Shown: positions 7,520 through 29,395 of the stretch, in pieces
Layout: every line of letters begins with the position of its first letter
Position numbering within the stretch: the first letter of the stretch is position 1
IMG/VR virus record: IMGVR_UViG_3300042293_000560
Span: 1-29,395 of that record
Strand: one strand, 5' to 3'
DNA length: 29,395 nucleotides
Source: a virus
Program-made: the position numbers and the translations under genes
The notes under the pieces: model-generated
What the model was told of the DNA's origin: nothing
Database searches by the model: none
Seen by the model: the letters and a program-made list of their open reading frames with translations, nothing else

Positions 7520-8629
7520 ATGCGCTTGCACCTGCTCGGCATTCCGCACACCGTCACGCACCCCGAATGGTCGCACTGCGCCTTTACCCAAAAAGTGCGA
7601 CGCCTGGCAGCAATGGTGCGGCCGTACGGGCATCACGTGACGCATTACGGCGTGGCCGGATCCGTAAGCGGCGCCGACGTTGACGTCGTGGTCATGGAGC
7701 AGGACGAACACCAACAGCTGTTGGGGCATGCGTACCGACACGATCAGCCGTACGGCGCCGACGCGGAGGACGGGAGCCCGCTCTACCGTCAGTGGAATCT
7801 GTACGCGCGCGCCGAGCTGGCGGAGCGCGTGCAGCCCGGCGACCTCATTTTGTGCCCGTTTGGGCACGCGCACGGCGCCGCGATCCGCGGGTTGCCGGTG
7901 CTGTCGGCCGGCGCCGGCGCGATCGAATCGGGGATCGGGTACTTCGAGACCATGCTTCCGTGGCGGATCTACGAATCGTATGCCGTGCGGCATGCCGTGA
8001 TGGCCAAAGAAGGCCGGTACGGGGTGACGCTAACCAGCGATCGGCTGGAGTTTGTGGCGCCAAATTACTACGACGCCGCCGAGTGGCCAGCGGGCACGCC
8101 TGGCGCCGATGCGCCAATGCTGTACATGGGCCGGCTGACGGAGGGGAAGGGGTTGGCCATCGTGCTCGACGTCGCGCGGCAATGCCCCGACGTGCGCTTC
8201 CAGATTGCCGGGCAAGGCGAGTTATCCACATTCGGGCCGCTGCCGGATAATGTGGAATACTTAGGCGTGCTGGGCGCCGATCGCGCGCAGGTGATGGGCG
8301 CCGCGCGGGCGATGATCGCGCCGAGCCGGTACGTCGAACCGTTTTGCGGCACCGTGATTGAGGCGGCATTGTGCGGCACGCCGGCTATCACGTCGGATTT
8401 CGGCGCGTTTGCCGAGACCGTGGAGCATGGCACAACCGGCTACCGGTGTCAGACCGTGGCGCAGTTTGTCCAGGCGGTGCGGCAGGTGGAGACGCTCGAG
8501 CGCGACGCGGTGCGGGCGCGAGCACTGGCGCGGTATACGCTGCCGGTGGTGGGCGCGCTGTACGACGCGCATTTCGCCGTCTGCGCGGAGCGGCTGGCGG
8601 CTGGACCGTACCCGGCAACGGGCTGGTAG
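7520..8629 (+). CDS. GT-B fold glycosyltransferase (GT4-like) in the tail/lysis junction
   Basis: A 369-residue protein of the GT-B type, which transfers a sugar from a nucleotide-sugar to an acceptor. The N-terminal Rossmann half (1-180) starts MRLHLLGIP and includes a likely acceptor side. The C-terminal half has the donor-site signature: LYMGRLTEGKG near 201-211 with the conserved lysine K210, the Q-IAGQGEL turn near 228-235, and the E-x7-E pair E273/E281 in the segment ending IEAALCGTPA. These match GT4 retaining enzymes. There is no signal peptide or membrane segment, so it should act in the cytoplasm. It follows the tail-tip gene by ten bases and has no promoter or strong ribosome site of its own, so it should be expressed with late genes. 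The acceptor is unknown: a virion protein, host lipopolysaccharide or another glycan are all possible. Confidence 0.9.
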   Translation: MRLHLLGIPHTVTHPEWSHCAFTQKVRRLAAMVRPYGHHVTHYGVAGSVSGADVDVVVMEQDEHQQLLGHAYRHDQPYGADAEDGSPLYRQWNLYARAELAERVQPGDLILCPFGHAHGAAIRGLPVLSAGAGAIESGIGYFETMLPWRIYESYAVRHAVMAKEGRYGVTLTSDRLEFVAPNYYDAAEWPAGTPGADAPMLYMGRLTEGKGLAIVLDVARQCPDVRFQIAGQGELSTFGPLPDNVEYLGVLGADRAQVMGAARAMIAPSRYVEPFCGTVIEAALCGTPAITSDFGAFAETVEHGTTGYRCQTVAQFVQAVRQVETLERDAVRARALARYTLPVVGALYDAHFAVCAERLAAGPYPATGW

Positions 8630-17875: not shown

Positions 17876-18201
17876 TGACCAAGAAATCAGCCACAAAACA
17901 GCCGAACCCGATCAAGGGGAACACGCCGTGGCCGAAAGGCCAAAGCGGCAACCCAAAAGGGCGGCCGCCGAAACTGCCGGGGCTGGACCTGCTGCTCGCG
18001 TCGGTGATGGGCGAGGAGGAAAACGGCGTATCCGCGGCGGAGACTGTGCTCCGGGCGATGCTTGCCAAGGCCGCAGGCGGAGACGTCCGAGCGGCTGAGG
18101 TGCTGCTCGATCGCGCCTACGGCAAGGCGGCGCAGACGCTGGACGTGACGTCAGCCGGGCAAGCGATCACACCGCCGATCATCTGGAGCGATGGTAAATG
18201 A
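17872..18201 (+). CDS. Small terminase subunit candidate (DUF5681-type)
   Basis: A 109-residue protein with the N-terminal signature TPWPKGQSGNPKGRPPK (residues 18-34), which defines the DUF5681 domain, followed by a helical part (36-95) of a size fit for a small terminase. It lies two genes before the large terminase and the intervening gene is a methyltransferase. Small terminases bind the packaging site and regulate the large subunit. The motif plus place supports the call, but DUF5681 also occurs elsewhere, so TerS is likely rather than sure. ATG 17872 overlaps the previous stop. Another ATG follows directly. Confidence 0.75.
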   Translation: MMTKKSATKQPNPIKGNTPWPKGQSGNPKGRPPKLPGLDLLLASVMGEEENGVSAAETVLRAMLAKAAGGDVRAAEVLLDRAYGKAAQTLDVTSAGQAITPPIIWSDGK

Positions 18202-18812
18202 AGTATTACGAACGGTGGTGGCAGGACAACATTGGCACGCGCGGCGCCGAGTTTGCCGGATGGCTGGCCGATAGCGACCCGTCAAGCCGCGCGGCGGTCG
18301 GTGACCTCGTAGACACGCTACGTGGCACGGTCGACGTGCTGGAGTGCGGGCCGGGGACGTACATGGATCACCGGCAGCTGTGGGAATGCCGGCCGGATGT
18401 GATCTATCACGCGCTGGACGTCACGCCGGCTATCGTGGAACGGGGCCGCGCGATGGGGCTAGAGGACGTGCGCCTCGGGTCGGTCGAGGAGATCCCGCAC
18501 AAGGCGGATTCTATAGATGTCGTGTACTGCCGGCACGTGCTCGAGCACTTGCCGAACTACCGGACGGCGCTGGTCGAGATGCACCGCGTGGCGCGAAAGT
18601 ACGCCGTGGCCGTGTTCTGGCGGCTGGACATTGAGGCCGATCGGGATCTGATCCTTTGGAATACCGTAGCCGATGTGCCGGACACGTTCCACAACATGTA
18701 CTCAATGCCCGTCATCTCGGCGTGGCTCGCGTCGCTGCACATCGCGCACCGATGGCAACCGGCCGACAAAGACTGGCTGCTGATCTTGGATGCCGGCCGC
18801 ACGCCAGGATAA
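18198..18812 (+). CDS. SAM-dependent methyltransferase (class I) between the terminase genes
   Basis: A 204-residue Rossmann-type methyltransferase of the Methyltransf_11 kind. Motif I is VLECGPG (47-53), the acidic end of strand 2 is D74 in HALDVT, and the motif around strand 4 is DVVYCRHVLEHLPNY (107-121). There is no (N/D)PPY motif, so N6-adenine or N4-cytosine DNA methylation is not supported. No cytosine-C5 PC motif is visible. The family mostly methylates small molecules, sugars, lipids or proteins. ATG 18198 overlaps the small terminase candidate stop, and the gene overlaps the large terminase start by 23 bases. Its insertion between packaging genes is odd. See findings. Confidence 0.88.
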   Translation: MKYYERWWQDNIGTRGAEFAGWLADSDPSSRAAVGDLVDTLRGTVDVLECGPGTYMDHRQLWECRPDVIYHALDVTPAIVERGRAMGLEDVRLGSVEEIPHKADSIDVVYCRHVLEHLPNYRTALVEMHRVARKYAVAVFWRLDIEADRDLILWNTVADVPDTFHNMYSMPVISAWLASLHIAHRWQPADKDWLLILDAGRTPG

Positions 18813-20086: not shown

Positions 20087-20116
20087 CTTGCCATTGTGAA
20101 CGAATCCGGGAGCCCT

Positions 20117-22663
20117 ATGGCGTCACCCTTCCTTTCTCGCGTGTCTAGCGCGCTGGCCGTGCTGCGCGGGACATCGGAGACGCGCGCCGTCACGCCGGCC
20201 ATGATGCCCGGAGGCGCGATCGGCGCCGCGGCCGGCATGGCGGGGTTGTCGCTGGTCCGCACGGCCAACCCGCAGGAGTACAAGCCGGACGGCGCCACGG
20301 TCCGCGCGCAGGGCTTTAACAAGCACCCGGTGGTGCACGCGTGCATTCGCGCGATTGCCGATATCGTGGCGTCGGTGCCGCTCATCGTGCTGCGTGAGCA
20401 AGGCGAGATGGAGACGCGGGTGCCGCTGACGCATCCGCTCCAGCGGTTGCTTGATGCGCCGGGGCCGCGCATGACCGCGCGACAGATGCGGGCGCGGCTG
20501 GCCGTGGATTACGTCGGGTATGGCAACGCGATGTTCCAGCTCGAGCGGCCGGCGCCTGGGCGGCTGCCGCTGGCCATGCGGGCAATTAATCCGGAGTCGT
20601 TGCAGTCGGTCTGGGTGGACGCCGAGGGCGATCCGCGGCGCTACGATTACGGCAACTGGGCGGGCGTCATTGTGCAGGTGCCGGCCGAGGATGTCATCCA
20701 TTTCCGCGACCTCGATATGCCGCGGCCGTATTACCCGGATGTGTTCGGGTTTCCGCGCGGGGCAACGGCGATCGCGTCAATGACGGCGGACAACGAGGCG
20801 ACGCAATACGTGCGGCAGGTGGTGACCAACGACGGAACGCCGACGTTTGCCGTGCTGCTGTCTGATGAGGCGACACAGGACGACGCCAGCGCCATGCAGG
20901 ACCGCTACCGCGCGCGCGTGGTAGATCGCGGCAAGCGCGGCACGCCGGCGTTTTTTGGATCGGTGCGGGACATTAAGCCGCTTGGGTTTACGCTGAGCGA
21001 TCTAGAGTTCCCCGACCTGCGCCGCGTAAGCCGTGAAGACATTTGCGCGGCGTTCGGGGTGGATCCGCGGATGATCGGGATCGCGTCGGCCACGTCTGAC
21101 GCAGGGCTTTCCGGCACGCAATACGTTGAGGCCCGCGCGCGGCTAGTGCAGCACACCATTGAGCCGATTTTAGGCGCCATTGAGGACGAGCTCAACCACT
21201 GGCTGTCTCCGGAATACGGCGACGTCTACATCGTATACGATCACGCCGTGCTGTCGGACCTGATTGAGAACGACACGGTCACAAGCGAGCGGGTGCAGAA
21301 GGAGTTTGGTATCGGCTTGCGCACGTGGGAGGAATCGCGCCGGGCGCTCAAGCTGTCGCCGGTGCCGATCCCAACCGACACTATCGCACTCAAGACGGGC
21401 ACGCAGCTGGTGCCGGCCGCCGTCGCGGTGATTGACCCGCGCGCCGTGCTCGATCCGGAACCCGCCGAAGCGGAGCAGCTGGCCGGCGCCGGGCCGGGGC
21501 CGATGACGACCGAAGCCGGCGCGGCCGCGATGGACGAGGCCGAAGCCGAGCAGGGGCAGGCGCAAGAGCAGGGGCGCCACGTGCGCACCATGGCCGATAG
21601 CGCGCTCTCCGGTGACCAAATTGAGCAGATGGTCGAGCTGCTAGAGTCTCTGGCAGAAGGCGAGCTGCCGCGCGATGCGGTGCAGGCCGTGATGATGGCC
21701 GCGTTTCCGGCCGTGCCGTTGTCGACCATTGCCGCAATGCTGGACGCTATGGTCGGCTTTGTGCCAGCGGAAGAAGAGCCGGAAGAGCCGGAGGCGCCGG
21801 AAGAAGAGCCGGAAGAGCCGGAGGAGATGGCGGCCCCGATGTGGTGGGAGCGGCTGACGGCGGACGAACTGGCGGCGGAGCCGCGGTATCAGCAGTGGAC
21901 GCGCGCCATGGAAGAACTGACGCGGCGCGAAGAGCCATGGTATACGGCGGGCGTGTCTCGGTTCGCGGCTGAGCGCGAGCAAATCGGCTCGTTGTTCGGG
22001 TTGGGGAGCCGCGCAACCAAGACCACGCAAGAAATTCTCGACGAGATCCAGCGGCGCATCCGGCAAGGGTTTAAGCCGAACGGCGAATATTACGACGCCT
22101 GGCGCGCCGCGTTTCTTGATCTGATCGGCGAGATGTATATGGTCGGCGCGCGGCAGGTGTCGGGTGTCGGGCTGTCGTTTTCGCTGCAATCGCCGGAGGT
22201 GCTGAACGCGATTAGCAAGCGGTCGGGGCGGTTGGCGGAACTAGTCGGCAAGACGACCAGCGACAATATCCTTTCCGCGATCCGCGCCGCCGAACTGGCC
22301 GGCATGTCGGTCAAGGAGACGGGGCGGCTCGTGCAAGCGTCGGTTTATAACGAAGTCATAACCGACAACAGAAGCCGCACCATTGCGCGCACCGAGTCGG
22401 CCGGCGCGATGAGCCAGGGCACGTGGGATCAGGCCACGCAGGCCGGTATCTACCGCTCAAAAGAGTGGCTCGCGTTTTCAGATCTCAAAACGCGCGATTC
22501 GCATACGCAGTGCATGGAGCAAGGCCGTATTCCGTTTGACGATGCGTTTCAAAACGGACTAACGTACCCGCTTGATCCATCAAGTAATGATCCGGCCGAG
22601 GTCATTAATTGCCGCTGTGTGCTGGCGCCGTATATCACCAGCGTGGATGAGGAGCCTATCTAG
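20117..22663 (+). CDS. Portal protein fused to a MuF minor head domain
   Basis: An 848-residue fusion. Residues about 50-390 are a HK97-type portal (HPVVHACIRAIADIVASVPL, later GFTLSDLEFPDLRRVSREDICAAFGVDP, which is the typical core). A flexible acidic linker around residues 540-570 contains a 24-base exact direct repeat encoding E/P. The C-terminal ~170 residues are a Mu gpF-like domain: ARTESAGAMSQGTWDQA near 756-772, later H, then NCRC near 828-831. The portal forms the dodecameric DNA gate. MuF domains are minor head proteins injected or used in assembly. ATG 20117 is chosen for GGGAG at 20108-20112. GTG 20096 adds seven residues but lacks a ribosome site. The two are usually separate genes, so this fusion is notable but not unique. 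Confidence 0.92.
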   Translation: MASPFLSRVSSALAVLRGTSETRAVTPAMMPGGAIGAAAGMAGLSLVRTANPQEYKPDGATVRAQGFNKHPVVHACIRAIADIVASVPLIVLREQGEMETRVPLTHPLQRLLDAPGPRMTARQMRARLAVDYVGYGNAMFQLERPAPGRLPLAMRAINPESLQSVWVDAEGDPRRYDYGNWAGVIVQVPAEDVIHFRDLDMPRPYYPDVFGFPRGATAIASMTADNEATQYVRQVVTNDGTPTFAVLLSDEATQDDASAMQDRYRARVVDRGKRGTPAFFGSVRDIKPLGFTLSDLEFPDLRRVSREDICAAFGVDPRMIGIASATSDAGLSGTQYVEARARLVQHTIEPILGAIEDELNHWLSPEYGDVYIVYDHAVLSDLIENDTVTSERVQKEFGIGLRTWEESRRALKLSPVPIPTDTIALKTGTQLVPAAVAVIDPRAVLDPEPAEAEQLAGAGPGPMTTEAGAAAMDEAEAEQGQAQEQGRHVRTMADSALSGDQIEQMVELLESLAEGELPRDAVQAVMMAAFPAVPLSTIAAMLDAMVGFVPAEEEPEEPEAPEEEPEEPEEMAAPMWWERLTADELAAEPRYQQWTRAMEELTRREEPWYTAGVSRFAAEREQIGSLFGLGSRATKTTQEILDEIQRRIRQGFKPNGEYYDAWRAAFLDLIGEMYMVGARQVSGVGLSFSLQSPEVLNAISKRSGRLAELVGKTTSDNILSAIRAAELAGMSVKETGRLVQASVYNEVITDNRSRTIARTESAGAMSQGTWDQATQAGIYRSKEWLAFSDLKTRDSHTQCMEQGRIPFDDAFQNGLTYPLDPSSNDPAEVINCRCVLAPYITSVDEEPI
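21770..21823 (+). repeat. 24-base direct repeat in the E/P-rich portal-MuF linker
   Basis: The 24 bases at 21770-21793 recur exactly at 21800-21823, ten codons apart. They encode EEEPEEPE. It makes the linker adjustable in length by slippage or recombination. Confidence 0.75.
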
Positions 22664-23457
22664 TGAAAACGACCATACCGGCGCAGGTGCGCCACATCGC
22701 CGACGCACACCTCCAGCTGCGAGCCGATACCGCGTTGCCCGATGGCGTGGCGGGCCGTGTGTCCGGTGTCGCGCTCACGTATGAGGTGGTTGACAGCTAC
22801 GGCACCATGTTTGCGCGCGGCTGCACGAAGGCGACCATCGAGCGCAAGGTGAAGGCGCGCAAAGTGCCGCTGCTAATGGACCATGAGCGGCGCACCGGCG
22901 CGCATGTCGGTGTGGTGTCGATGATGCAGGAGATGGGCGACAGTCTGATGATGACCGCCGATCTATTCGACACGCCGGAGGGCCGCTCGGCGCTCGAGTA
23001 CGTCAAGGCCGTGATCGGCGCCGGCGCCACGACGGGCTTCTCGATTGGCTTCGCACCGCGGCGCACGGAAGCCGTCACGGTGGACGGGCAGATCGTGGAA
23101 CGCTTCCTAGAAATCGAATTGCGCGAAGTGTCGATTACGCCAATGCCGGCCGTGCCTGGCGCCGACATCACGTCGGCGCGGCACGATGACGGCGGCGCGC
23201 TCGAGCGGAGCGACGAAGAGCTACTGACGGCGGCCGCGATGGCCGCCTTGAACGCGTTGCCCGTGAGCTCGCGGGCGGCGCTGCTGGCGCAGTACACGCA
23301 CGAGCAGGCACGACCCGAACCCGACCAGCAGGCGACACCGCACAGCCGTGCGGATTGTCCCGCCACTGACCCGGCGCCGGCGCCCGTGGATGCGCGCGCG
23401 ACCGATGGACACACCACGATGGCGCACCGTCTCGCGGCGGTCCGCGCCACATACTGA
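22663..23457 (+). CDS. Prohead protease, S78 (HK97) family
   Basis: A 264-residue protease. The S78 core covers residues about 28-170: the catalytic histidine in VPLLMDHE (H74), the serine in TTGFSIGF (S127), and E155 in the closing IELREVSITPMPA. Family members cut the scaffolding part of the capsid during maturation. The C-terminal ~90 residues are Ala/Pro-rich and may be a scaffold segment, since no separate scaffold gene appears. GTG 22663 overlaps the portal stop (TAGTG). It lies eight bases before the capsid gene. Confidence 0.92.
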   Translation: MKTTIPAQVRHIADAHLQLRADTALPDGVAGRVSGVALTYEVVDSYGTMFARGCTKATIERKVKARKVPLLMDHERRTGAHVGVVSMMQEMGDSLMMTADLFDTPEGRSALEYVKAVIGAGATTGFSIGFAPRRTEAVTVDGQIVERFLEIELREVSITPMPAVPGADITSARHDDGGALERSDEELLTAAAMAALNALPVSSRAALLAQYTHEQARPEPDQQATPHSRADCPATDPAPAPVDARATDGHTTMAHRLAAVRATY

Positions 23458-23464
23458 GGATATC

Positions 23465-24823
23465 ATGAAAGCACCACTGGTGAGCAAGAACCGCGCGGCC
23501 GCTGAGCTGCGCGAGAAGGCGCACAAGATCCGGCATGACTTGGTCGACGCGACCAACGTTTACACGGCCGAAGAAGTCGACAAGATGACGGCCGATATCC
23601 GGTCGTTTGAAATGCGCGCGCAGGCGGCCGCCGAGTTTACGCCGGATGCTGAGATCCAGCGTCAGGGCGGAGACGAAGGGCTGACGCGCGTGGACGCGGG
23701 CGCTCCGCCGCGCACCGAGTTTGCCAACATGGGCGACGCGATGACCGAAGTGCGGTCGACGATCGTCAACGCGTTTAGCAACGTCGGGAGCTACATCCGC
23801 GCGGCCACGCGTGGACCGGCGAACGCGGCGGAAGCGGCGGCGTTGCGCGAAGTGGACAAGTACACGCGCACGATTACCGGCAGCACCAACGGCGGCGAGT
23901 ACCTGCTTCCGTTGACGCAGGTGCCGGAAATCTTTTCGGTGGACAACCAGCAGCCCGGATTGTTCCAGTACGCGCGCCGGTACAACGTGCCCGGCCGCTC
24001 GCTGCGCATCCCGTATCTGGTGCAGGACGAGGGCACCACGACGCTCAACCGTCCGATGGCCGGTAAGATTGCCAACGTGACGATCGTTGGCGAAGGCGCC
24101 ACCAAGCCGACGCGCGAGCCGACGTTTGGTCAGCGTCTGCTGACGATGTACAAGTATGCCGCGATCACGCAGTTCGGCGACGAATTGCTGGGCGACGATT
24201 TCACCGGCGAGCTGCCGAGCGAAGTCACGACGGCTGTTGGCGGCCAGATCGTCAACAAGCTCAACGAAGATATCACGATCGACGGCACGGGCTCGAGCGA
24301 GCCGCTGGGCGCCCTGAACAACGCCAACACGGCGCTGATCTCGGTGAACCGCGCGACTGCATCGACGTTCACCGCGGCGGATGCGTTCGCCATGTATGAG
24401 CGCCACACGCACGGCCCGAACTCGGTGTGGATGATCTCCCGCCGCGTGCTGGCCAAGCTGTTCGCCATGCAGCAGACCAACAACACGATGGTAACGTGGC
24501 TGGCCAACCTCCGCGACAAGCCGCAGATGCTGCTGCTTGGTCTTCCGGTGGTGGTCACCGACCTGCTCCCGACGCTCGGCACGAAGGGCGACGTGGCGCT
24601 GGTGAACGGCGATTTCTACTCAATGGGCCTGCGTCAGGCGCTAACGGTGGAATCGTCCATTCACGTGGCGTTCGTGCAGGACGTGACCACGTACCGCTTC
24701 GTGGCACGTGGCGGCGGTATCCCGCTTCCGACGTCGACGTACGCCTACAAGGTGGACGGCGCCGGCAACAAGGTCGACCCGCATTCGCCGTTCGTCACGC
24801 TTGATGTCCCTGCATCGTCCTGA
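23465..24823 (+). CDS. Major capsid protein, HK97 fold
   Basis: A 452-residue protein with the usual layout: an N-terminal helical scaffold-like delta domain (1-~110, to be removed by the protease), then the HK97 core (SYIRAATRG, GGEYLLPLTQVPEIF, VGEGATKPTREPTFGQ, VNKLNEDITIDGTGSSEPLG, and the closing FVQDVTTYRFVARGGG). GAGGA at 23456-23460 sits four bases before ATG 23465. It has no visible frameshift and no insertion in the core. It probably is the most abundant protein and its codon use looks uniform. Genes downstream overlap its end. Confidence 0.95.
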   Translation: MKAPLVSKNRAAAELREKAHKIRHDLVDATNVYTAEEVDKMTADIRSFEMRAQAAAEFTPDAEIQRQGGDEGLTRVDAGAPPRTEFANMGDAMTEVRSTIVNAFSNVGSYIRAATRGPANAAEAAALREVDKYTRTITGSTNGGEYLLPLTQVPEIFSVDNQQPGLFQYARRYNVPGRSLRIPYLVQDEGTTTLNRPMAGKIANVTIVGEGATKPTREPTFGQRLLTMYKYAAITQFGDELLGDDFTGELPSEVTTAVGGQIVNKLNEDITIDGTGSSEPLGALNNANTALISVNRATASTFTAADAFAMYERHTHGPNSVWMISRRVLAKLFAMQQTNNTMVTWLANLRDKPQMLLLGLPVVVTDLLPTLGTKGDVALVNGDFYSMGLRQALTVESSIHVAFVQDVTTYRFVARGGGIPLPTSTYAYKVDGAGNKVDPHSPFVTLDVPASS

Positions 24824-26135
24824 TGCAGTGACCGATTACCCGACCCCCGGTGGTGCCGATCTGGCGCCGCCGGGGCGTTCGGCGTTGGTGGAGGTGATGG
24901 CGGTCACGGAATGTGTGATCGACGGGACGCGCCGCGCGGTGGGCGAGGCGTTTACCGTGGCGGCTAATCGGGTGGATGCGCTGGTCGGGTATGGGTACGT
25001 GTTGCCCGATGCGCTATTCGACCTGATGCAGCCGGAGGCGGCGGCGCAATGGCGCGACCGGCCGCGGCGCGGGCTGACCGCGCAGTCGCTGGTGTGTGAT
25101 CCCGCGACCGCGGACGCTCTGTGGAGCGGCGATGGGCGCATGCTGGCGCCTGCCGGATGGGCGGAGACGTCGACGTATACCGCGGCGCCGGTGACGCCTG
25201 GCGCGGTGCGCGTGTTGCAGCTGACGCAGTATGACCCCGGATCGAGCGTGTACCGCTACCATAGCGCGGCCAATAGCGTCGACGGGGTCGTCTCGGCCAT
25301 GGTGCGGTACGGCGACAGCAACCCGCATTGCTCATTGCGGCAGTGGGACGGCGAGCTCCACCGGCGCACGGTTGAGCTATTGGCCATGACGGCCGATGTA
25401 ATTCACGTACACATGGACTGGCGCGCGCTGCACCAAGACTTGCGCTACGTGCTGCGCGATGGCCAGCGGGCCGCGATCACGTATCACGGCAGCGTGCGCC
25501 CTAACGACGGCGCCCGCGTGCTGGTGGACCACGACGGCGACCGACGCATGGGCGCGATGCAGTTTGGCGCGCGCCCGTACCATGGCCGGCACGGCGTCGC
25601 GCGCTACCTGCCGATCCCGGTGCCGGTGGCCGATTACGCGGCGGCCGCACAATCACACCGGCGCGGCGATGTCCTTCGCATTGCGCACAGCCCGACCAAG
25701 CGAGAGATCAAGGGGACACGGACGCTCTTGGATGCGGTCGACTGGCTGCGCGATGTGGAAGGGCTGCGGATTGAGGTGGTGATGATCGAGGGGCTCGAGC
25801 ACGGCGCCGCGTTGCGACTCAAGGCGTCGTGCGATGTCACCTTCGATTCATTTTGGCTGGGCATGCAAGGCAGCGGCATTGAAGCGGCCGCGATGGGGCA
25901 AGCCGTGATCGCGGGCGACGCGCTGGCGGCCGGCGAAGCGGCGGCGCTCAACGGCGGCGCGTGTCCGTGGACGTATGCGGATGAGCGCTACCAGCTGCTG
26001 ACCGTGCTGGCGCGCTTGGCGACCGATCCGGACTATCTAACGGCCGAAGCGGCGCGGGTGGGCGCCTACGTGGCGCGGGTGCATGACTATCGGGCCGTTG
26101 GCCAGCGTTACCGCGCGTTCCTTCAAGAGGTGTAG
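24804..26135 (+). CDS. Glycosyltransferase fused to a small head-module domain
   Basis: A 443-residue protein. Residues about 28-70 (ALVEVMAVTECVIDGTRRAVG onward, GYGYVLPDALF) look like the small beta domain that many phages encode as a separate gene right behind the capsid gene. A linker follows to ~134. Residues 135-440 are a GT-B glycosyltransferase: VRVLQLTQYDPG, VIHVHMDW (199-206), ITYHGS (225-230), RIAHSPTKREIKGT (292-305) and MQGSGIEAAAMGQAVIAGD (354-372) with E360 as the donor-site acidic residue. The start is uncertain: ATG 24804 overlaps the capsid gene and GTG 24828 lies five bases after its stop. Either keeps the domains. The sugar acceptor is unknown. The location between capsid and connector genes points to a virion role. 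Confidence 0.85.
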   Translation: MSLHRPDAVTDYPTPGGADLAPPGRSALVEVMAVTECVIDGTRRAVGEAFTVAANRVDALVGYGYVLPDALFDLMQPEAAAQWRDRPRRGLTAQSLVCDPATADALWSGDGRMLAPAGWAETSTYTAAPVTPGAVRVLQLTQYDPGSSVYRYHSAANSVDGVVSAMVRYGDSNPHCSLRQWDGELHRRTVELLAMTADVIHVHMDWRALHQDLRYVLRDGQRAAITYHGSVRPNDGARVLVDHDGDRRMGAMQFGARPYHGRHGVARYLPIPVPVADYAAAAQSHRRGDVLRIAHSPTKREIKGTRTLLDAVDWLRDVEGLRIEVVMIEGLEHGAALRLKASCDVTFDSFWLGMQGSGIEAAAMGQAVIAGDALAAGEAAALNGGACPWTYADERYQLLTVLARLATDPDYLTAEAARVGAYVARVHDYRAVGQRYRAFLQEV

Positions 26136-26136
26136 C

Positions 26137-26697
26137 ATGGCATTGCCGACGTTTACCGACCTGAAAACGTACCTGCGCATTGAGACGACGGCGGAAGATA
26201 CGCTGTTGGCCGCACTGATGGCGCGCGCGAAAGCGATGATTGAAGCGTGGACGGATACGCCGATGACCGCGACCAGTCAAACGGCGATCGACCGCGCCGA
26301 CGCGCTGGCCATGCCGGTGACGTCGCTGGTGTTTCCTCGCCGGCCGTGCGCGGTTACGGCCATCGTCGATGTGGATAACGTCGCGGTGCCGGTGGCGGAT
26401 TACTGGGTTGATGGCCGATCGGGCGTCATCTACGCCAAGCAGGGCATTGCGTTTCCGTATGGACCGTACACGATCACGGCCAATGTCGGGCTGTCGCTGC
26501 GCGCGGATTACGCGGCGCTCGAGCCGTTGCTGACCGAGGCAATCATCGACCTTGCGGCGGATTTGTACCAGCGGCGCACGCCTGGCGCCTCATCGGAGAC
26601 GGCGGCCGGTACCACGATCCATTGGGACGCCAGCCGGGAGACGGTGGCGCGCGTGATGAAAACGCTGCGCCTGCTCAAGCTTGGGGTGGCGCAATGA
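26137..26697 (+). CDS. Head-tail connector, gp6-like
   Basis: A 186-residue protein with the helical start of the HK97 gp6 family (FTDLKTYLRIETTAEDTLLAALMARAKAMIEAW, residues 6-38) and a beta-rich middle. Members form a ring under the portal. ATG 26137 follows the glycosyltransferase stop by one base. The stop overlaps the next start. Its position right after the capsid module supports the call. A DnaA-box-like 9-mer (26370-26378) lies inside. Confidence 0.85.
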   Translation: MALPTFTDLKTYLRIETTAEDTLLAALMARAKAMIEAWTDTPMTATSQTAIDRADALAMPVTSLVFPRRPCAVTAIVDVDNVAVPVADYWVDGRSGVIYAKQGIAFPYGPYTITANVGLSLRADYAALEPLLTEAIIDLAADLYQRRTPGASSETAAGTTIHWDASRETVARVMKTLRLLKLGVAQ

Positions 26698-27827: not shown

Positions 27828-29395
27828 ATGGCATTAATGGCGGATCGCGTCCGAGAGACGACGACCACGGCAGGCACGGGCACGGTGACGCTTGACGGCG
27901 CCGCGATTGGATACCAGAGCTTCGGGACCGCCTTTGGATCTGGCGCCCTGGTGTACTACGTGATTGCCGGTCCGGTGGAATGGGAGATCGGCATCGGCAC
28001 CACGGGCGCCGGCACGCTCGCACGCACGACGGTGCTGCAATCCACCAACGGCGATGCGCTGGTCCCGTTTTCGGCTGGCCAGAAAGACGTGTTCTGCGCG
28101 TACGTGGCTGATCGAGCGGTGACGACCAGCGATGCGGCGGCGCTCACCAACAAGACGATTGACAGCTACACGAATTTTGTCGGCGCCAATCAGCTGCACA
28201 TAAAGTGCAAGGCGATGGCGAACTTGGCGAAGGGCACGGTGTGCAAGATCACCGGATGGAATGCCGGAGAAAACGCCGTCGAAGTGGACGCCATGACGTC
28301 GACGGCCGATCTCGCGTTCGGCGTGATGTATACCGCGCTGACCACGGGATCGTTCGGCGAGATCATTAACACGGGCTATCTCGAAGGGATCAACACCAAC
28401 GCGTATGCTCCGGGCACGATCCTTTACCCGAACGGCACCGGCGGCTTTACGTCGACCAAGCCGACGAGCGGCACATATCAGGCGTGCGCGTATGTGCTGC
28501 GTCAGCAGAGCGTAAACGGTACGATCTATGTGGAGTTCACGAATCCGAATCAGGTCGAGGCCAGCACTAACACAGGCAACACGCTCGTGTTGCGCGACGG
28601 CAGCGGCAACTTTGCGGCGGGCACGATTACGGCCGCGGCGCAGGTGGTCACGGGTGACGCGCAGGTCAATGGTATGGCGAAGCTCTATGGGCCAAACGGC
28701 TCAACTATCCTGAACCTGCGGGATAGTTCCGGGACCGTTGATGCAAGAGAGTGGTCGTTTCGTATGGTTAGCGGAGCACTTGAAATCCGCTCTGTAACAG
28801 ATGCCAACGCGACGCAAACTACGGTTGTCTCATTTGCTCGTGCTGGCAACATAACTGTTCCCGGTAGCATCTTGGTTTCGGGGAACTCAACAGTCACTGG
28901 CGACCTCACCGTGGATACGTCCACGTTAAAGGTGGACGCGGCAAACAACCGCGTAGGCGTTAACACAGCGACACCAGCCACCACGCTCGATGTGAACGGC
29001 GCCACGACGCTGCGTGGTAACGTGTCGTTTTTGGCTGACGCCACGCACGATATCGGAGCATCGGCATCGGCTCGACCGCGCAACGTCTACACGTCTGGCG
29101 ATGCGTTTGTTGCTGGCGTTCGCGTGGGTCGAGGGGCGGGCGCGGTTACAAGCAATACCGCCGTAGGCACTAGCGCGCTAAACAGCGCATCGCTGACGGG
29201 TGGCAACAACAGTGCCATTGGCGCAAGCGCCATGTTAGGCAACACCACAGGTGTTAGCAACAGTGCCGTGGGCGCGACCGCCTTGGCAAGCAACACCACG
29301 GGCAGCAGCAACATTGCCATCGGCTCGCAAGCCCTGCTAAGTAATACCACGGGTGGGGTTAACAGTGCTGTCGGCAGTAATGCTTTGCAGTTTAA
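27828..29395 (+). CDS. Tail fibre / adhesin-like protein (partial, runs off the window)
   Basis: Open from ATG 27828 to the right edge with no stop (522 codons plus two bases visible). It begins MALMADRVRETTTTAGTGTV, the start pattern of many phage fibre proteins, then a beta-rich part (residues ~100-250: TNKTIDSY, KCKAMANLAKGTVCKITGW, GLEG-type turns), then fibre stalk-like segments (GNFAAGTIT, VDAANNRVGVNT, DATHDIGASASARPRNVYTSGDA). From codon 443 comes a run of 17-residue repeats of the N(S/T)A(V/I)G...AL...NTTG type, seen in trimeric adhesins and fibres, where they form a beta roll. It probably binds the host surface. No chaperone domain is visible as the end is missing. From about 28680 on base use becomes less GC-rich. 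Confidence 0.85.
   Translation, partial: MALMADRVRETTTTAGTGTVTLDGAAIGYQSFGTAFGSGALVYYVIAGPVEWEIGIGTTGAGTLARTTVLQSTNGDALVPFSAGQKDVFCAYVADRAVTTSDAAALTNKTIDSYTNFVGANQLHIKCKAMANLAKGTVCKITGWNAGENAVEVDAMTSTADLAFGVMYTALTTGSFGEIINTGYLEGINTNAYAPGTILYPNGTGGFTSTKPTSGTYQACAYVLRQQSVNGTIYVEFTNPNQVEASTNTGNTLVLRDGSGNFAAGTITAAAQVVTGDAQVNGMAKLYGPNGSTILNLRDSSGTVDAREWSFRMVSGALEIRSVTDANATQTTVVSFARAGNITVPGSILVSGNSTVTGDLTVDTSTLKVDAANNRVGVNTATPATTLDVNGATTLRGNVSFLADATHDIGASASARPRNVYTSGDAFVAGVRVGRGAGAVTSNTAVGTSALNSASLTGGNNSAIGASAMLGNTTGVSNSAVGATALASNTTGSSNIAIGSQALLSNTTGGVNSAVGSNALQF
29154..29395 (+). repeat. 17-residue adhesin-like repeats in the tail fibre
   Basis: Repeat starts at 29154, 29208, 29259, 29310 and 29361 (the first unit 18 codons, the following three 17 codons each). 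Each unit has N-S/T-A-V/I-G at its start, A-L/M in the middle and NTTG near the end. The array continues past the window. Confidence 0.85.

Follow-up and report, generated by a model that had tools for sequence, protein, structure and literature searches.

Within a 29,395-bp virus record from an uncultivated phage (IMG/VR IMGVR_UViG_3300042293_000560; hereafter, the window), we found a gene whose single protein product joins a small N-terminal β domain, homologous to a stand-alone protein of related phages, to a glycosyltransferase (GT) of GT-B fold. The gene lies between those for the major capsid protein (MCP) and a head-tail connector, its enzyme part evolves under purifying selection, and the same arrangement recurs in many other phages. 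We propose that the product is a capsid-docked glycosyltransferase that modifies a head surface protein, a reading to which we assign a probability of roughly 0.6. Here, the small domain, resembling in type the C-terminal domain of the post-capsid protein gpFI of phage lambda, would attach to the MCP lattice, in the prohead or in the capsid, and so hold the GT-B enzyme at the shell. There, with a nucleotide sugar as donor, the enzyme would glycosylate the capsid protein or some other protein on the head surface, such as a decoration protein. The positions of the features are given in Table 1.

Table 1. Features of the fusion gene, its neighbors in the window, and the three-part relatives.
Feature	Position	Strand	Remarks
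Prohead serine protease (S78)	22663..23457	+	PF04586; phrog_80
Major capsid protein (HK97 fold)	23468..24823	+	PF05065 Phage_capsid, E 1e-23; phrog_10 major head protein
Fusion gene: small post-capsid (gpFI-CTD-like) domain and GT-B glycosyltransferase	24804..26135	+	443 aa; one ORF without internal stop
N-terminal module, residues 1-67: disordered tail (1-22) and small β domain (~27-67)	24804..25004	+	Homolog of the protein that relatives encode alone after the MCP gene
Variable linker/insert, residues 68-132	25005..25199	+	From alignment; many relatives have a shorter one or none
GT-B glycosyltransferase domain, residues 133-443	25200..26132	+	Signature FDSFWLGMQxSGxE; fold matches; dN/dS
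gp6-like head-tail connector (next gene, ATG 26137)	26137..26697	+	PF05135; phrog_442 head-tail adaptor
Three-part proteins	L223:2246-4228, L224:2318-4261, L225:664-2898, L244:4846-7080		Just after the capsid gene where the locus includes it

Searches against Pfam and PHROGs placed the protease, portal, and TerL genes ahead of the MCP gene in the window, and the slot of the fusion gene is that between an HK97-type capsid gene and a gp6-like connector gene. Its start overlaps the end of the MCP gene by 20 nt, the ATG being at 24804 and the MCP stop codon ending at 24823. An earlier note on this DNA had described a GT-B enzyme behind a small β domain, wedged between capsid and connector genes, and this is indeed what the intact 443-residue frame and its PF05065 and PF05135 neighbors display. 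Elsewhere in the window, the portal and a Mu F-like head morphogenesis domain share one 855-residue ORF (20096-22663, +; PF04860 and PF04233), and a Methyltransf_11 gene (18198-18812, +) adjoins TerL on its upstream side. Among the sampled records, the latter gene occurs in 7 of the 13 that are GT-positive and in none of the 9 that are GT-negative, a comparison that is confounded by kinship. A fibre-like ORF (27828-29393, +), which runs off the window end, carries SNTAVGxxAL-type repeats as in the heads of trimeric autotransporters. Moreover, a second GT (7520-8629, +; PF13692, and phrog_3408 with E 6e-51) is encoded behind a 1614-residue tail-region ORF, and PF13692 GTs are present in most of the sampled relatives, several of these being without the fused GT.

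The AlphaFold2 model of the entire fusion (pLDDT 86, pTM 0.86) begins with a disordered stretch (residues 1-22), followed by the small β domain (residues ~27-67, with strands 28-33, 37-39, 42-44, and 49-53, and a helix at 54-61), a linker, and the GT-B part from about residue 133 onward. The N-terminal domain had previously been drawn as residues 1-130; while a small β domain does exist there, it spans only residues ~27-67, and in the alignment of relatives the linker or insert at 68-130 differs from clade to clade. On the other hand, the motifs noted earlier for the enzyme, i.e., HVHMDW (201-206), TYHGS (226-230), KREIKGT (299-305), and E360, are all present and largely invariant, with H201, H203, T226-S230, K303-T305, and E360 unchanged across 24 diverse relatives. 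In fact, H228, K303, and E360, together with the DSFWLGMQ block, are retained in homologs down to 31% identity.

Structural comparison of residues 133-443 by VIA gave Z scores of about 21 to T4 AGT, PimA, BshA, and HepE (range to GT-B enzymes, 17.9-21.8), and the two Rossmann-like domains of the GT-B type are both present. The top VIA row was T4 AGT (Z 21.8), tied with many GT4 enzymes, while Foldseek returned PimA first (E 4e-11) and ranked PimA, MshA, and HepE all above AGT. In sequence searches, the window protein gave no above-cut-off match to the curated GT4 profile, 8 of the 24 relatives matched PF13692 (best 8e-4), and searches of PHROGs and of PDB sequences with the GT yielded nothing firm. 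The description of the enzyme as GT4-like is thus upheld by its fold and by weak profile matches, but not by the EX7E donor-site motif, in which E360 is kept and the position of the first Glu is L352 (the second GT of the window has Glu there). Since this motif is incomplete, activity cannot be assumed from the motif alone. Nonetheless, because dN/dS is 0.06-0.23 for the GT domain against 0.20-0.60 for the N-terminal part, we consider the GT domain to be under purifying selection and the enzyme, putatively a catalytic one, to have been kept functional.

A search for the same fusion in other phages, as the earlier note had suggested, produced dozens of cases at the same locus. There was no relative of the fusion protein among 50,697 records of cultured phages, and at least 89 were found in IMG/VR; an alignment-seeded search then extended the family to enzymes of 31-46% identity that carry the signature FDSFWLGMQxSGxE. 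In every full-length homolog the N-terminal part is in one continuous frame with the GT, and this shared frame, along with the low dN/dS, rules out a chance ORF or an assembly join. Neighboring genes were counted from 99 distinct GT sequences: an HK97-type capsid gene lies upstream within 2.5 kb in 68 of 77 (those whose record extends 2.2 kb or more upstream), and a connector gene lies downstream within 600 nt in 69 of 84. Separately, two adjacent GT ORFs, one of which has two GT-like parts, are found on a contig with terminase- and Mu F-like ORFs in a Euryarchaeota MAG (L154:4585-8019), with 31% identity to the GT of the window. When only the L154 GT served as the seed, a scan returned no match, though the alignment seed did find relatives. 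Another related contig belongs to a Burkholderiales MAG.

Scanning with the capsid protein also turned up GT-less relatives. In one of their clades, with capsids 74-83% identical to that of the window, the small domain is encoded alone in the same MCP-connector slot by a gene of 78-83 codons (some mechanical ORF calls reach 96 by taking upstream starts). This stand-alone protein has the MSRxRKP start seen in the fusion, and its gene likewise overlaps the MCP stop. With hhalign, it aligns to the fused N-termini at a probability of 98% (E 3e-13), and the predicted models of the stand-alone protein and the fused small domain agree in the succession of strands and helix. The earlier claim that the domain is of a type usually encoded alone after a phage capsid gene is therefore well founded. 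All 11 stand-alone proteins match DUF7210 (PF23843; best 5.1e-6), as do 2 of the 24 fused relatives (best 4.2e-4), whereas the window protein itself gives no match to this profile; a literature search for DUF7210 found no published function. Other relatives have neither part, there being just a 23-97 nt gap between the capsid and connector genes. At the loci L138-L143, a 37-codon ORF with a ..RRKP..GRAVGG start and no β domain sits between these two genes, and may be what is left of the slot gene.

Because some lineages with capsids 74-84% identical to that of the window are without the GT or without the whole slot gene, both are dispensable, a point against the docking model. Relocation of the enzyme in GT-less relatives was considered and rejected, as the sole match to the fusion family in those records is the small domain; the alternative raised earlier, of a separate GT gene far from the head module, accordingly finds no counterpart in them. 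Over the capsid tree, the presence of the GT switches at least four times. That the distant L153 is also fused suggests an old fusion that was later lost, on a tree whose root is not proven.

As for the possible nature of the small domain, lambda gpFI offers a guide. This protein binds the capsid lattice, and its C-terminal domain carries the head-binding activity. Foldseek ranked that very domain first among PDB matches to the small domain (PDB ID: 2lsm; E 0.07, probability 1.00, 28% identity), and with this the idea that the small domain recruits the enzyme gains a concrete model. In the lambda genome, the gpFI gene comes directly after the MCP gene E and before FII, and the slot of the fusion gene is placed in the same way, directly after the MCP gene and before a head-tail joining gene. 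Alignment with hhalign pairs gpFI residues 81-129 with the small domain, at a pairwise probability of 5%; gpFI is also the best scorer among seven lambda head and tail proteins against the small-domain profile, with none of 200 shuffles reaching its score. In VIA, however, a gpFI piece (Z 4.0) is tied with pieces of ribosomal L9 and GINS, and so the gpFI link rests on the Foldseek rank, the slot, and the shuffle test. PF14000 matches lambda gpFI, but neither the window protein nor the stand-alone slot proteins. In view of the VIA tie and the missing PF14000 match, we regard the small domain as gpFI-like rather than as a gpFI member, with a relationship to the gpFI C-terminal domain that is suggestive. 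Besides the 2lsm ranking, the two have in common the post-capsid slot and a similar V..vaaxx..PGxxFxVsa..a....GL pattern, and they differ in that gpFI has its own N-terminal domain and no GT, and in that the sequence link between them is weak.

A search for the acceptor, in which capsid alignment columns were compared with GT state, revealed no convincing residue that tracks GT presence; the clearest such column is the capsid C-terminus, itself constrained by the gene overlap. The enzyme might instead glycosylate some other protein of the virion, from the connector, tail, or fibre, or be merely co-expressed with the head genes, the small domain then being an assembly factor fused for reasons of dosage or timing. 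We judge this to be unlikely, though it is the most serious of the alternatives. Translational overlap with the MCP gene would provide head-gene timing without any docking, and, with the phrog_3408 GT positioned behind the tail-region ORF and PF13692 GTs so widespread, even where the fused GT is missing, tail parts may receive sugar as well. Against this, the relatives of the fused domain stand alone in the post-capsid slot, and the fusion has been kept across very divergent phages, even with a second GT added.

That the GT alters sugars of the host envelope, as in superinfection exclusion, with its proximity to the capsid gene being incidental, strikes us as highly improbable. A late head operon position conserved across divergent lineages, and a fused domain that is otherwise a post-capsid protein, both speak against it, notwithstanding that many phage GTs act on the host envelope and that PimA and further envelope GTs are among its nearest structural matches. 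A shade less probable again is a DNA glucosyltransferase of the T4 AGT kind, brought to the head so as to act on the packaged DNA. AGT does top the VIA comparison in its many-way tie, yet it is outranked in Foldseek by PimA, MshA, and HepE. Moreover, no gene of the PF00303 type (thymidylate synthase/dCMP hydroxymethylase) was seen among the window genes scanned or in any of 20 relatives (some of these records being incomplete), which makes DNA glucosylation unlikely. Least probable of all is an inactive GT domain serving as a structural or decoration protein, for which the L352 replacement would speak, since the low dN/dS of the domain and the invariance of H228, K303, E360, and the DSFWLGMQ block across 31%-identical homologs tell against it.

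Returning to the capsid-docked enzyme, we observed that in some distant relatives the cargo is extended. In L223, L224, L225, and L244, one ORF joins a related small domain to a GT-A-like domain (PF13704, weak) and, behind that, a GT-B domain of the window family, and the N-termini of these three-part proteins match those of the window family (97.6%, E 3e-12). Other distant relatives have double GTs with no visible small domain. The three-part proteins fit a docking part with a variable, longer sugar-building cargo. By extension, a gpFI-type capsid-binding domain could be a general phage device, an adaptor on which enzymes that modify the capsid are docked and whose cargo can be exchanged (none, a single GT-B, or a GT-A with a GT-B), a tentative idea to which we would give somewhat less than even odds. 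If true, the GT-A and GT-B pair would build a longer glycan in place, and site-directed glycosylation of the assembling shell would be a common strategy among uncultivated tailed phages.

Compared with known enzymes, the fused GT has its fold over residues 133-443 in common with GT4-like GT-B enzymes (PimA, BshA, HepE, and PglA) and the T4 α-glucosyltransferase, along with the conserved His of TYHGS and Lys of IKGT, but is set apart from them by an identity below 20%, no gathering-level Pfam match, the incomplete EX7E, and a signature of its own. The phrog_3408 GT of the window is likewise a GT4-like phage enzyme, but as a separate gene in the tail region, widespread in GT-less relatives, it is only remotely similar to the fused GT.

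To our knowledge, glycosylation of the capsid is known in few cultured phages. Among the mycobacteriophages, Corndog encodes GTs and an O-methyltransferase in the portal-protease interval of its head genes, and these have been proposed to act on the capsid (PMC4351075); glycans on capsid proteins of Che8 and Rita are reported in work cited in PMC11256854. These tailed phages resemble that of the window in having GT genes; Corndog further pairs a methyltransferase with its head GTs, and the window has the Methyltransf_11 gene before TerL. In contrast, the mycobacteriophage GTs are described as separate genes, which in Corndog lie between those for portal and protease and in Maravista near the 3' end of the genome, and their descriptions mention no fused capsid-docking domain, while the window GT is fused and lies between the MCP and connector genes. 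Phage capsid glycosylation as such is thus already known, and the putative capsid-docking fusion is new as far as searched, none having been found in cultured phages. Its architecture suggests how such an enzyme might pick the capsid, namely, by docking through a capsid-binding domain. Nature also supplies the controls, with close relatives having the docking part alone or neither part, and distant ones having two enzymes per docking domain. Such targeting can be tested directly, and would provide a modular tag by which enzymes could be positioned on viral shells.
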